Positions 4,746 through 32,982 of a stretch of DNA of 32,986 nucleotides are shown one piece after another. The stretch's first letter is position 1. Each line of letters opens with the position of its first letter. Location of the stretch: contig NZ_CAMFHX010000029.1 in the NCBI RefSeq assembly GCF_945952365.1, forward strand, positions 1 to 32,986, in the 5' to 3' direction. The stretch is from an uncultured Cetobacterium sp. Lineage in GTDB: Bacteria > Fusobacteriota > Fusobacteriia > Fusobacteriales > Fusobacteriaceae. The notes under the pieces were generated by a model that worked only from the letters and a program-made list of their open reading frames with translations, had not been told where the DNA came from and searched no databases. The translations under genes and the position numbers were made by a program.

Positions 4746-5544
4746 AATGATTGTTACTGACCTTGACGATACTCTTTTAAACTCTCAAGGTAAAATTTCA
4801 TCTGAGGATAAAAAGGCCATCATGGAAGCTCAAGAAGCTGGAGTTAAATTTGTTTTAGCATCAGGAAGGCCTACATATGCAATGAGAGATCTTGCCAAGG
4901 AACTTCACCTTGAAAAATATGGAAGTTTTATTTTATCGTACAACGGTTCTATTATAACGGATTGCAAAACAAATAAAAATATTCTAGAAGAAACTTTAAC
5001 AGTTGATGAAATCCACAAGCTCTATGATTTTAGTAAAAGAAAAAATGTTGAAATTATAACTTACCTAGAAGATACAATTATCTCTGAAGACTATAGTTCA
5101 TACATCGAAGTTGAAGTTGATTTAACTAAGATGCCATTTGAAAAAGTAAAAAATTTCAAAGCCACTATCGATAAAGACTGTGTAAAATGTATCATGCTAG
5201 AAGACCCTAGTTATCTATCAAAAGTTGAAAAAGAATTAAAAAATGAGTTAGAAAAAGAGTTTTCTATTGCTATTTCAAAACCATTTTTCCTTGAGATTAC
5301 AAAACTTGGAGTTGATAAGGGAAGCTCTCTTTTGAGATTGGTTGATTTAATTGGAATTAAAATAGAGGAAGTTATTGTTGTTGGAGACTCTTATAATGAC
5401 TTACCTATGCTTAAGGTTGCTGGCCTTCCAGCTTGTGTTGAAAATGCAAAACCAGAAATTAAAGAGATTTGTCAATTTATTTCGACTTCAAATAACAACA
5501 ATGGTATGTCAAATCTAATAAAAAAATTAATATTCGAAAAGTAA
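4735..5544 (+). CDS. Cof-type HAD-IIB family hydrolase
   Basis: A 269-residue cytoplasmic phosphatase of the HAD superfamily. Motif I is VTDLDDTL (nucleophile Asp9, acid Asp11), motif II is the Ser in LASGRP, motif III is the Lys in DKGSSL, and motif IV is GDSYNDLPML. The cap between motifs II and III is of the C2B type typical of Cof/YidA sugar-phosphate phosphatases. The true start is the ATG at 4735, preceded by GGGAGG; an in-frame extension upstream would lie wholly in the M20 gene and lacks a ribosome site. The start lies inside the M20 gene, so the two are probably translationally coupled. Substrate unknown. Confidence 0.88.
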   Translation: MKYKMIVTDLDDTLLNSQGKISSEDKKAIMEAQEAGVKFVLASGRPTYAMRDLAKELHLEKYGSFILSYNGSIITDCKTNKNILEETLTVDEIHKLYDFSKRKNVEIITYLEDTIISEDYSSYIEVEVDLTKMPFEKVKNFKATIDKDCVKCIMLEDPSYLSKVEKELKNELEKEFSIAISKPFFLEITKLGVDKGSSLLRLVDLIGIKIEEVIVVGDSYNDLPMLKVAGLPACVENAKPEIKEICQFISTSNNNNGMSNLIKKLIFEK

Positions 5545-5568
5545 AGTGGTTAGCCACTTTTCTTTTTA
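5543..5568 (+). terminator. Terminator after the HAD hydrolase gene
   Basis: AAAGTGG (5543-5549), a four-base loop and CCACTTT (5554-5560) are followed by TTCTTTTT. The arm begins within the stop codon of the hydrolase. Confidence 0.85.
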
Positions 5569-5595
5569 AATAAAATACTTTGATAATAAAAATAA

Positions 5596-5628
5596 TTGAC
5601 ATTTAAAACATCTTATGATAATATCATA
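5596..5628 (+). promoter_or_regulatory. Promoter with a 7-1-7 palindromic operator for the DUF2023 operon
   Basis: A perfect -35 TTGACA lies at 5596-5601. The -10 region, with several overlapping candidates at 5614-5627 (for example TAATAT at 5619 with 17-base spacing), is covered by the 15-base perfect palindrome TATGATA-A-TATCATA (5614-5628). A 7-1-7 A/T palindrome over the -10 is the geometry of Fur/PerR-type repressor sites. Which regulator binds is inference. The predicted transcript start is about 20 bases before the start codon. Confidence 0.6.
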
Positions 5629-5652
5629 GTAATCAAATTTTTGGAGGAGTTT

Positions 5653-5988
5653 ATGCAAGTTTTTATTCATCATATATACGAGTTTGAAAAAGGAATTAGA
5701 AACCTAATTTTACATACTATTTCTGAAGATCTATTGACATTTGTTGAAGATAGACTTAACACTAAAAATATAGCTTATAAAATATATAAAATAAAAAATG
5801 GTAGATACAATATCTTCTTTGGAGATGAATCTTGTATCAACGTTATAAAAAAAATTAATAAACCTAATCTATCTGAATATACTGCTGAAGAGGATTTTAT
5901 TTTAGGAATCATGTTAGGATACGACAGAAAAAAACAGTGTGACAGATATATACAGTTTAAGAATAGAGAACATATCAAAGTTTCATAA
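5653..5988 (+). CDS. DUF2023 family protein
   Basis: A 111-residue protein from the ATG at 5653, chosen because GGAGGAG (5643-5649) lies just before it; the longer reading frame starts inside the promoter. The N-terminal motif HHIYEFEKGIRNLILHT at about 6-22 is what I recognise as DUF2023, a small cytoplasmic family of unknown function found mostly in anaerobes and microaerophiles. The C-terminal part holds FILGIMLGYDRKKQCDRY. There is no signal peptide or membrane segment. It is the first gene of a two-gene operon with the DUF2325-like gene, 14 bases away. I vaguely recall DUF2023 near flavodoxin or iron-regulated genes, but cannot confirm it here. Confidence 0.75.
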   Translation: MQVFIHHIYEFEKGIRNLILHTISEDLLTFVEDRLNTKNIAYKIYKIKNGRYNIFFGDESCINVIKKINKPNLSEYTAEEDFILGIMLGYDRKKQCDRYIQFKNREHIKVS

Positions 5989-6002
5989 GGGAGGAGAGAA
6001 AC

Positions 6003-6281
6003 ATGGTTGCTATTGTAGGTGGTTTAAAAAGAGGAGAAAGAGAGTATTTAGAGTTACTAAAATCTTATAACTTAAAAGGAAAAGTTTATAATACTCAATG
6101 TCCTAATTTTTGTAAAAAAATTAAAAACTGTGAAATGTGCATAATTTTTACTAACTTAGTTAGTCACAACCTTTTGAATAATTGTACTAAAGTTTGTAAA
6201 ACTCAAAATATTCCAATTGTTCATTTAAACAATAACAGCATCTCAACACTTAAAGAAAATTTAGAAAAAACTTATAAATAG
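6003..6281 (+). CDS. DUF2325-like small Cys-rich protein
   Basis: A 92-residue protein with a Rossmann-like layout. It has an N-terminal VAIVGGLKRGEREYLELL glycine-rich strand-turn-helix (2-19), a central IIFTNLVSHNL segment (47-57), and a late IPIVHLNNNSISTL strand-turn-helix, the pattern of the DUF2325 family. Unusual here are six cysteines: Cys33-x3-Cys37-x5-Cys43-x2-Cys46, then Cys61-x3-Cys65. This could bind a metal or cluster or act as a thiol switch; that is inference. The start follows GGGAGGAG. It is second in the operon with DUF2023 and ends at a strong bidirectional terminator. Function unknown. Confidence 0.7.
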   Translation: MVAIVGGLKRGEREYLELLKSYNLKGKVYNTQCPNFCKKIKNCEMCIIFTNLVSHNLLNNCTKVCKTQNIPIVHLNNNSISTLKENLEKTYK

Positions 6282-6313
6282 AAAAAAAGATTGCATTATC
6301 GCAATCTTTTTTT
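6282..6313. terminator. Bidirectional terminator between converging operons
   Basis: AAAAAAAGATTGC (6282-6294), a six-base loop and GCAATCTTTTTTT (6301-6313) work on both strands. On the minus strand the stem encodes the last residues of the flippase (KKRLR), and its TAA stop lies in the loop (6296-6298). Confidence 0.9.
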
Positions 6314-7741
6314 TATATAATTTATCCACATTAAAACTCTTGTATTCTTCAATAAAATTAAAGATATAAAGTATATTATTCCATAAACTATAGGAGTAAT
6401 TACTAAAGTAAATAGATTTCCATAAACTCTTATTAAATCTATTTTTAAATAAAGAGCTATTGAAATTAAAACTCCAATAACCATAGTTATAATCCTATCT
6501 TTAGTCAGAATTTTATAGTCAGAATAAATTCTTTTCATTTGATATATTTTAACTAATGCTATTATAATCTCTGTAACTAATGTAGCTATTGCTGCTCCAT
6601 TTCTTAGATAAACTGGTATTAGAAAATAGTTCAATCCAATATTTAAAAATACTCCAACTATAGAGATTATCAATATATCTCTTTCTAAATCATTTGGTAA
6701 CATCACTTGTCCACCTATAAATGTTCCTATAGCTAGAAATACTAAACATGGCGACATTATAATCATCGTTTCAATTGAACCAATAAATCCTTCTCCTGAA
6801 AATAGCAAAGTAAACTCCCTTGCCAATATCATCATCAAGACTGTTGCTGGAATTCCAACTATAAAAGCATAGTCCATAAATACATCTATATTTTTATAAA
6901 TATTTTCCTTCTCTTTTCTTTTTATAGCTCCTATTATCCTTGGTGATAAAACTGTTCCCAAAGTCAATATAACAGGTAAAACCATTTTATACATTTTAAC
7001 TGCTGCTGTGTATAGTCCAACCTCTGTATCATTTATCATTATTCCAAGCATGGTAGTATCAATACTACCATATATTCCTATTGTAAATATATACAGAAAT
7101 ATTATCAACATGCTTTTTGTATGTCTTTTAAAATTCAACTCTTTAAAATTAAAGTTAAAATATTTTCTGACACTAAAGACATCTACTATTCTTGCTAATA
7201 TCTCTGGAACAACAAGTAACAGAGCATATAAATAGTAATCATCTGGTGTTTTTATAAAATAGAATAAAAACCCTAAAGATAAAATTCTAATTGTAAATGA
7301 ACGTATCAATCTTCTTTTATGATTTTCCATTACAATGAAAAAGTGATTTATATGAAAACATTCAAATAAAACCTGAGCTGAAAAAATATAAAAAATTAAA
7401 CTTTCTTTTGTAAACTTATCATAAGATTTTACTGCTATTAAAAGAACTATCAAAGAACCAATGCTACTTAAGATTGTCATTAAAAAAAGTTCTGTAAAGA
7501 TTTTTTTAAACTCAACCCAATCTCCAATTCCTTTAGCTTTAGATAACTCTTTTATTCCATAATTAGGTGCACCTAATACTGACACTATTACAAAATAAGC
7601 TACAACTCCCTGAACAAAATAAACTTTCCCTAGATATTCTGGCATCAAAACTCTAGACACATAGGGAAAAGTTATTATTGGAAAAATTGTATTACTTATA
7701 ATAAGTAGTACGTTGTATAAATAATTTTTTGAAACTGACAT
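6296..7741 (-). CDS. Oligosaccharide flippase family membrane protein (Wzx/MOP type)
   Basis: A 481-residue polytopic membrane protein with about 12-14 hydrophobic segments. The N terminus, YNVLLIISNTIFPIITFPYVSRVL, and the following EYLGKVYF are typical of polysaccharide biosynthesis/export flippases of the MOP superfamily, which move lipid-linked sugar repeats across the inner membrane. No glycosyltransferase or other O-antigen/capsule genes lie nearby, which is unusual for a Wzx. It is preceded by nhaC with a 15-base gap, has a GGGGAAG ribosome site, and is probably cotranscribed with nhaC. The substrate is unknown. Confidence 0.82.
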   Translation of the reverse strand: MSVSKNYLYNVLLIISNTIFPIITFPYVSRVLMPEYLGKVYFVQGVVAYFVIVSVLGAPNYGIKELSKAKGIGDWVEFKKIFTELFLMTILSSIGSLIVLLIAVKSYDKFTKESLIFYIFSAQVLFECFHINHFFIVMENHKRRLIRSFTIRILSLGFLFYFIKTPDDYYLYALLLVVPEILARIVDVFSVRKYFNFNFKELNFKRHTKSMLIIFLYIFTIGIYGSIDTTMLGIMINDTEVGLYTAAVKMYKMVLPVILTLGTVLSPRIIGAIKRKEKENIYKNIDVFMDYAFIVGIPATVLMMILAREFTLLFSGEGFIGSIETMIIMSPCLVFLAIGTFIGGQVMLPNDLERDILIISIVGVFLNIGLNYFLIPVYLRNGAAIATLVTEIIIALVKIYQMKRIYSDYKILTKDRIITMVIGVLISIALYLKIDLIRVYGNLFTLVITPIVYGIIYFISLILLKNTRVLMWINYIKKRLR

Positions 7742-32361: not shown

Positions 32362-32438
32362 TGGCGGGAGTGACGAGGGTCGAACTCGCGACCTCATGCG
32401 TGACAGGCATGCGCTCTAACCAACTGAGCTACACCCCC
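32362..32438 (-). tRNA. tRNA-Asp (anticodon GTC)
   Basis: 77 bases with encoded CCA. The acceptor arm GGGGGTG pairs with CACTCCC (one wobble). The anticodon loop is CTGTCAC and the T arm contains GTTCGAC. It is the last gene of the seven-tRNA cluster. Confidence 0.97.
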
Positions 32439-32448
32439 ATTAATTATA

Positions 32449-32524
32449 TGGTGGAAACAACTGGACTTGAACCAGTGACCCCCTGCTTGTAAGGCAGGTG
32501 CTCTCCCAACTGAGCTATGCTTCC
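32449..32524 (-). tRNA. tRNA-Val (anticodon TAC)
   Basis: 76 bases with encoded CCA. Acceptor arm GGAAGCA pairs with TGTTTCC, anticodon loop CTTACAA. Confidence 0.97.
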
Positions 32525-32539
32525 TATTGAATTTTTTTA

Positions 32540-32615
32540 TGGTGCCCAGAGGCGGAATCGAACCACCGACACGGGGATTTTCAGTCCCCTGCTCTACCGA
32601 CTGAGCTATCTGGGC
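32540..32615 (-). tRNA. tRNA-Phe (anticodon GAA)
   Basis: 76 bases with encoded CCA. Acceptor arm GCCCAGA pairs with TCTGGGC, anticodon stem GGGGA/TCCCC, loop CTGAAAA. Confidence 0.97.
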
Positions 32616-32648
32616 ATCATTTGTTACCTGCTATAGGTACCTTTAGTA

Positions 32649-32732
32649 TGGCGGAAGGTCAGAGACTCGAACTCTGAAGTCTTGCGACGCCGGTTTTCAA
32701 GACCGGTTCCTTACCAGTTAGGATAACCTTCC
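32649..32732 (-). tRNA. tRNA-Ser (anticodon TGA)
   Basis: 84 bases with encoded CCA. Acceptor arm GGAAGGT pairs with ACCTTCC, anticodon loop CTTGAAA. A long variable arm (GTC-GCAA-GAC) fits a class II serine tRNA. Confidence 0.96.
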
Positions 32733-32739
32733 ATATTAA

Positions 32740-32814
32740 TGGTACCCCGTAGGGGAATCGAACCCCTGTTTATAGAGTGAAAATCTATTGTCCTAACCGT
32801 TGAACGAACGGGGC
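32740..32814 (-). tRNA. tRNA-Glu (anticodon TTC)
   Basis: 75 bases with encoded CCA. Acceptor arm GCCCCGT pairs with ACGGGGT, the first pair being G-U. Anticodon loop TTTTCAC. Confidence 0.96.
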
Positions 32815-32820
32815 AGGTGA

Positions 32821-32897
32821 TGGTGGATCTAGCTGGAGTCGAACCAGCGACCACTCGGTTATGAGCCGAGTGCTCTAACCAACTGAGCTATAGATCC
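32821..32897 (-). tRNA. tRNA with anticodon CAT (elongator Met or lysidine-type Ile)
   Basis: 77 bases with encoded CCA. Acceptor arm GGATCTA pairs with TAGATCC, anticodon loop CTCATAA. A fully paired first acceptor pair (G-C) excludes initiator tRNA. The variable/T-arm stretch GGTCGCTGGTTC matches known Ile (CAT) tRNAs, but the acceptor arm does not decide between Met and Ile. Confidence 0.9.
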
Positions 32898-32905
32898 GTT
32901 AGTTA

Positions 32906-32982
<77 letters not shown>

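Follow-up and report, generated by a model that had tools for sequence, protein, structure and literature searches.

A DUF2023-DUF2325 operon of Fusobacteriota as a probable member of an iron-starvation regulon with its own palindromic operator

Described relatives and layout of the operon

In Bacteroidota, DUF2023 genes form iron-starvation operons with the flavodoxin gene fldA (PG1858-PG1857, BT0517-BT0516, and PIOMA14_I_0020-21), and RNA-seq of iron-starved cells recorded increases in DUF2023 mRNA of 48-fold in P. gingivalis, ~160-fold in P. intermedia, and 598-fold in B. thetaiotaomicron, with flavodoxin also induced (PMC10434189). Cj1384 of C. jejuni is a small cysteine-rich DUF2325 protein (104 aa, 7 Cys) that is encoded next to katA and regulated by PerR (PMC9426514). 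It is thus already known that iron starvation induces DUF2023 in Bacteroidota and that a DUF2325 protein can be under PerR, and the proposal of an earlier note on this DNA that the two genes described here make up an undescribed system was overstated.

In the 32,986-nucleotide stretch of DNA analyzed here (the window), which belongs to the Fusobacteriota genome (2.5 Mb, 98.7% complete) of a gut bacterium resembling Cetobacterium, a DUF2023 gene and a DUF2325 gene form an isolated two-gene operon (positions 5596 to 6314) with its own -35 and -10 elements and terminator (Table 1). The promoter spacer between TTGACA and TAATAT is 17 bp, and the DUF2325 gene starts 14 bp past the DUF2023 stop codon. 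The isolation, consensus -35, and strong terminator described in the earlier note were all seen, as was a separate terminator of the upstream gene. The operon resembles those of Bacteroidota in its DUF2023 family and in its association with iron-sparing genes; it differs from them in that the partner is DUF2325 rather than flavodoxin and the operator is of its own type, and the iron response established there by RNA-seq is here predicted from sequence. With Cj1384 it shares a small cysteine-rich DUF2325 protein, under a FUR-family regulator (PerR) in C. jejuni, but Cj1384 adjoins katA, answers oxidative stress, and has no described DUF2023 partner. Elsewhere in the window, seven tRNA genes are clustered on the minus strand (32365 to 32982).

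Table 1. Features of the DUF2023-DUF2325 locus, in window coordinates
Feature	Position	Strand	Remark
Intrinsic terminator of upstream HAD-type hydrolase gene	5543..5560	+	Isolates the operon
Operator candidate CTTTGATAATAAAAA	5578..5592	.	Genus alignment, common to feoAB, cross-genus enrichment, regulon scan
Core TTTGATNATNAAA of operator candidate	5579-5591		Inside CTTTGATAATAAAAA
-35 hexamer TTGACA	5596..5601	+	
Palindrome TATGATAATATCATA of the earlier note	5614..5628	.	Not conserved; best read as chance symmetry over the -10
Extended -10 TGaTAATAT	5616..5624	+	Genus alignment
-10 TAATAT	5619-5624		Extended by TG
Ribosome-binding site GGAGGAG of DUF2023	5643-5649		
DUF2023 gene, 111 aa (PF09633)	5653..5988	+	ATG at 5653
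Ribosome-binding site GGAGGAG of DUF2325	5990-5996		
Cys-rich DUF2325 gene, 92 aa (PF10087)	6003..6281	+	
Intrinsic terminator of the operon	6281..6314	+	

Among 98 Fusobacteriota genomes, DUF2023 was found above the cut-off in 53 and DUF2325 in 26. The pairing whose conservation the earlier note proposed to check is conserved: the two genes are adjacent in 20 of the 23 Fusobacteriaceae genomes that have both. DUF2023 comes first in the window's genus, DUF2325 in four other genera, and the pair has therefore been kept despite a change of gene order. It adjoins feoB in two genomes (G041 and G044), and Propionigenium maris has the order feoA-feoB-fld-DUF2325-DUF2023. In other Fusobacteriota genera, DUF2023 lies directly 3' of flavodoxin. 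A flavodoxin gene was found within 500 bp of DUF2023 on the same strand at 39 of 80 loci drawn from many phyla and the Methanosarcinales; some of the remaining loci adjoin feoB, feoA with a DtxR-type protein, a Fur-type protein, or ferredoxin.

Palindromes around the promoter

The earlier note had read the 15-base palindrome TATGATAATATCATA as a possible Fur/PerR regulatory site. Its perfect 7-1-7 symmetry and its position over the -10 stood up, and it has only one perfect copy in the window's genome, all of which would suit an operator. Against this, the window holds no more such palindromes than chance would supply (six, compared with a mean of 4.7 and a range of 0 to 10 in dinucleotide shuffles); among shuffles of the AT-rich 108-bp intergenic region (21% GC), 4% hold one. 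The site also failed on conservation. The closest relative carries CATGGTAATATCATA, in which the palindrome is broken, and the other congeners have lost it, the genus alignment retaining the extended -10 TGnTAnTAT alone. Homologous operons showed no enrichment of the pattern TATGATnATCATA in their upstream regions (2/23 versus 14/332 background upstreams; P = 0.28), nor did they when one genome per genus was used (1/12 genera versus 3/107; P = 0.35). With up to three mismatches genome-wide, the palindrome gave 289/293 matches versus 227/240 for a reversed control and so carries little information. Known half-sites are TGATAAT for Fur and TTATAAT for PerR, and the half-site here, TATGATA, is neither in register. 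The palindrome is best read as a chance one over an AT-rich -10, and a Fur/PerR operator covering the -10 at this position is scarcely credible.

The candidate operator starts 36 bases upstream of that palindrome. Besides the -10, the main conserved block in the genus alignment is aTAyTTTGAtnATAAAAATAaTTGACA, which ends in the -35, and the conserved palindrome directly upstream of the -35 is TTTGAYWATCAAA. The window's copy is imperfect, agreeing at 11 of the 12 specified bases. Within this genus, the feoAB promoter has CTTTRATWATYAAAG just before TTGACA in eight of nine aligned genomes. When 6-1-6 palindromes were enumerated and scored for TTTGAT arms, with at least 10 of 12 positions matching, they were found at 21/23 operon heads versus 33/332 background upstreams (P = 3e-17). 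Repeated with one genome per genus to limit relatedness, the test found TTTGATnATCAAA upstream of DUF2023, DUF2325, or flavodoxin operons in 12/12 genera versus 12/107 background upstreams (P = 3e-10) and, at a stricter cut-off, in 7/12 versus 0/107.

Forms of the element also precede DUF2325 genes that have no adjacent DUF2023 (G014, G039, G040, and G046), and the Leptotrichiaceae version, TTTGACAATCAAA, contains the -35 TTGACA within it and stands before flavodoxin-DUF2023. TGATAA half-sites at 6-1-6 spacing were not enriched; of the classical Fur box, the element holds only TGATnATCA, which forms the middle of the Fur consensus of E. coli. Since some of the sequences tested for enrichment had served to derive the element's consensus, and the genus feoAB promoters had also been seen beforehand, whole genomes were scanned as a more independent check than enrichment upstream of the operons.

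Targets of the candidate operator and its regulator

Exact copies of TTTGAYWATCAAA were present in seven of the nine genomes searched, at two to five places in each. Those between genes precede feoAB in G041, G054, and G046 (L273, L275, and L282), FutA/FbpA-type ferric-iron-binding proteins of ABC transporters in G041, G039, and G040 (L281, L286, and L289), flavodoxin in G046 (L274), and DUF2325 with or without DUF2023. The closest solved relatives of the G041 ferric-binding protein include iron-binding FutA/FbpA proteins. Other exact sites fall within genes or ahead of unrelated ones and were put down to chance. In the window's own genome, exact TTTGATWATCAAA occurs ~25 bp before the start of a TonB-dependent receptor gene (L295:2180-4336; C26) and ~110 bp before a 2[4Fe-4S] ferredoxin gene (L279:1030-1317; C42). 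The flavodoxin gene of this genome (L115) stands behind another gene, and the element is absent upstream of it.

The combined pattern TTTRATWATHAAA-N2-13-TTGACA has exactly two matches in the window's genome, feoAB and the DUF2023-DUF2325 operon, and its reversed control has none. Across the genus, nearly all matches to operator plus -35 belong to feoAB, DUF2023/DUF2325, and one small, probably secreted protein. Both this pattern and the exact 13-mer are specific, unlike the 15-mer CTTTGATWATYAAAG with two mismatches, which was rejected as a scan pattern (57/55 matches versus 56/50 for the control, mostly inside genes). A single palindromic operator is thus common to iron-uptake and iron-sparing genes, as looked for in a Fur-type regulon. 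Because the operator-plus-(-35) pattern matches only feoAB and this operon in the window's genome, and exact copies precede iron genes, the operon very probably belongs to the iron regulon. The iron connection suspected in the earlier note is supported by other and stronger evidence than its palindrome: this common operator and the feoB and fldA neighbors.

The secreted candidate is a 130-aa protein (MKKLLVLL...AEYRNGTYRG; L307:1060-1449, minus strand; also L300, L308, L311, and L318) that has no match in Pfam or NCBIfam. Its gene has the operator-plus-(-35) block in five genus genomes, and we treat it as a putative iron-regulon member. Two further sites were observed: an exact TTTGATAATCAAA upstream of a small DUF1858 protein gene in G040 (L284:1501-1783) and, in the ahpC promoter of the window's genome (L133, ~1500-1620), a weak form of the element, CTTTAACTATCAAAA, 18 bp before TTGACA.

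In having a palindromic operator by the promoters of feo, ferric transporter, TonB receptor, and flavodoxin genes, this gene set resembles the Fur regulons of E. coli and B. subtilis. It differs from them in the operator itself, where TTTGAYWATCAAA stands in place of the 19-bp Fur box or TGATAATNATTATCA, and in that the sole candidate regulator is PerR-like. No FUR-family protein other than this candidate, P0001 (L096:6228-6638), was found in the window's genome. A FUR protein was found in all 47 good-quality genomes of the family; some congeners have a second one, and the operator is present where there is one only. A DtxR/MntR-type protein (PF02742) was found in none of 12 genus genomes. The closest characterized relatives of P0001 are not Fur: its best match is PerR (2fe3; E = 1e-21), and the best chain named Fur follows at E = 2e-12. 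PerR is also its nearest named NCBIfam family, at 114 bits and under the cut-off of 180. The gene clusters with desulfoferrodoxin and rubredoxin genes. The repeat in its promoter is a different one, TTACAAAATTGTAA, which closely follows the -10 and is partly kept in other genera as ATGATTACAAA, and P0001's own site may therefore not be TTTGATnATCAAA. Another possible autoregulatory site, TTTGATGGTCAAA, was dismissed because it is not conserved and is situated within the upstream gene or at its end.

Since P0001 is the sole FUR-family protein and no DtxR/MntR-type protein was found, it is the leading candidate for the regulator acting at 5578-5592, and on this reading of the genomes we incline toward it; the FUR-family control envisaged in the earlier note is plausible. 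There is an appreciable possibility that the iron regulon and operator are real and the regulator is a protein outside the FUR and DtxR families. The conserved repeat of the P0001 promoter is unlike the operator, and TTTGATnATCAAA departs from the standard Fur and PerR boxes even though it contains TGATnATCA; such a regulator is set against the universal FUR protein of the family genomes, with P0001 alone here, and the DtxR/MntR-type protein not found in the genus.

The signal itself might instead be mainly peroxide, with P0001 acting as a PerR at 5578-5592 and DUF2325 and DUF2023 protecting thiols or Fe-S clusters under oxidative stress. The PerR-like sequence and gene neighbors of P0001 fit such a response, as do the weak element before ahpC and the PerR-regulated Cj1384 beside katA (PMC9426514). 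The exact sites, however, precede iron-import and flavodoxin genes and not peroxide genes, and in three Bacteroidota it is iron starvation that induces DUF2023 (PMC10434189), so that we consider a mainly peroxide response unlikely. Very unlikely, in turn, is that the element is an UP-type A/T-rich promoter block and the operon is not iron regulated. The element is A/T rich and directly upstream of the -35, but it is palindromic, its distance to the -35 varies to the point of containing the -35 in Leptotrichiaceae, and it marks iron genes genome-wide.

The two proteins and a proposed mechanism

The DUF2023 protein matches PF09633 over residues 2 to 101 (E = 2e-40; 137 bits versus a cut-off of 27), and the DUF2325 protein matches PF10087 over residues 2 to 89 (E = 1.6e-22; 79.9 bits versus a cut-off of 33.6), which places each in its family. 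The solved structure nearest to the DUF2023 protein is that of P. gingivalis PG1857 (2guk), to which the AlphaFold model (pLDDT 94) aligns with a TM score of 0.86 and 43% identity in the fold alignment; the fold search returned nothing but 2guk below E = 0.001. The invariant motifs of DUF2023 are H-x2-YE-x2-KG-x-R, N-x2-FG, and E-x-D-x2-LG-x2-LGY-x7-R. For DUF2325, the model (pLDDT 87) shows a small sheet of Rossmann-like type, and the fold search brought up nothing beyond weak, general matches to Rossmann, receiver, and PTS-IIB-like folds. Weak Pfam matches to Kinase-PPPase, PylC-like_N, and hnRNP_Q fell below cut-offs and were dismissed, as were compositional matches of DUF2325 to leucine-rich-repeat chains in the PDB.

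The DUF2325 protein has the six cysteines counted in the earlier note, and four of them (C33, C43, C46, and C65) are invariant in seven aligned Fusobacteriaceae homologues. The DUF2325 proteins of G039 and G040 have kept the operator upstream and lack several of the conserved cysteines, which counts against a strict cysteine requirement. In the solo DUF2325 proteins of genus g7 (L148:1483-1770 and L154), the loss of several conserved cysteines (NVPNF and KNVDAV) was seen with the operator or a form of it kept. Tentatively, the invariant motifs and the flavodoxin link suggest that DUF2023 could be a cytosolic accessory of an iron-sparing switch from ferredoxin to flavodoxin, and the four invariant cysteines and the feo neighbors suggest that DUF2325 could be a soluble carrier of iron or Fe-S clusters.

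Taken as a whole, an iron-starvation operon under the element at 5579-5591 is the likely explanation of this locus. In iron-replete cells, a metalloregulator bound to TTTGATNATNAAA, beside or over the -35, would block transcription; we infer repression as the direction of regulation. As iron falls, the repressor would be released, and DUF2023 and DUF2325 would be made together with feoAB, the ferric-iron transporters, and, in relatives, flavodoxin. The small Rossmann-like DUF2325 protein might then, through its conserved cysteines, bind or hand on iron or an Fe-S cluster near the iron imported by Feo. A more specific version is speculative and rather doubtful: DUF2325 and DUF2023 might form a two-protein iron-sparing module that steers ferredoxin and flavodoxin use, the cysteine site of DUF2325 accepting iron or an Fe-S cluster when iron is scarce, and a PerR-like protein in the role of Fur might recognize TTTGAYWATCAAA in Fusobacteriota.

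A search of the literature found the operator motif string in no paper, no paper on a Fur regulon of Fusobacterium or Cetobacterium, and no expression or binding results for any of the Fusobacteriota. As far as the literature searched shows, then, two things are new: the iron operon of DUF2325 and DUF2023 and, in Fusobacteriota, the operator TTTGAYWATCAAA together with its set of targets. The analysis would assign two protein families of unknown role to the iron-starvation response in Fusobacteriota, a phylum for which the literature searched showed no iron-regulon operator, and it makes a concrete operator with a target list available there. In gut and oral Bacteroidota, few genes respond to iron starvation as strongly as DUF2023, and its recurring partners, flavodoxin, Feo, and DUF2325, make its function testable.
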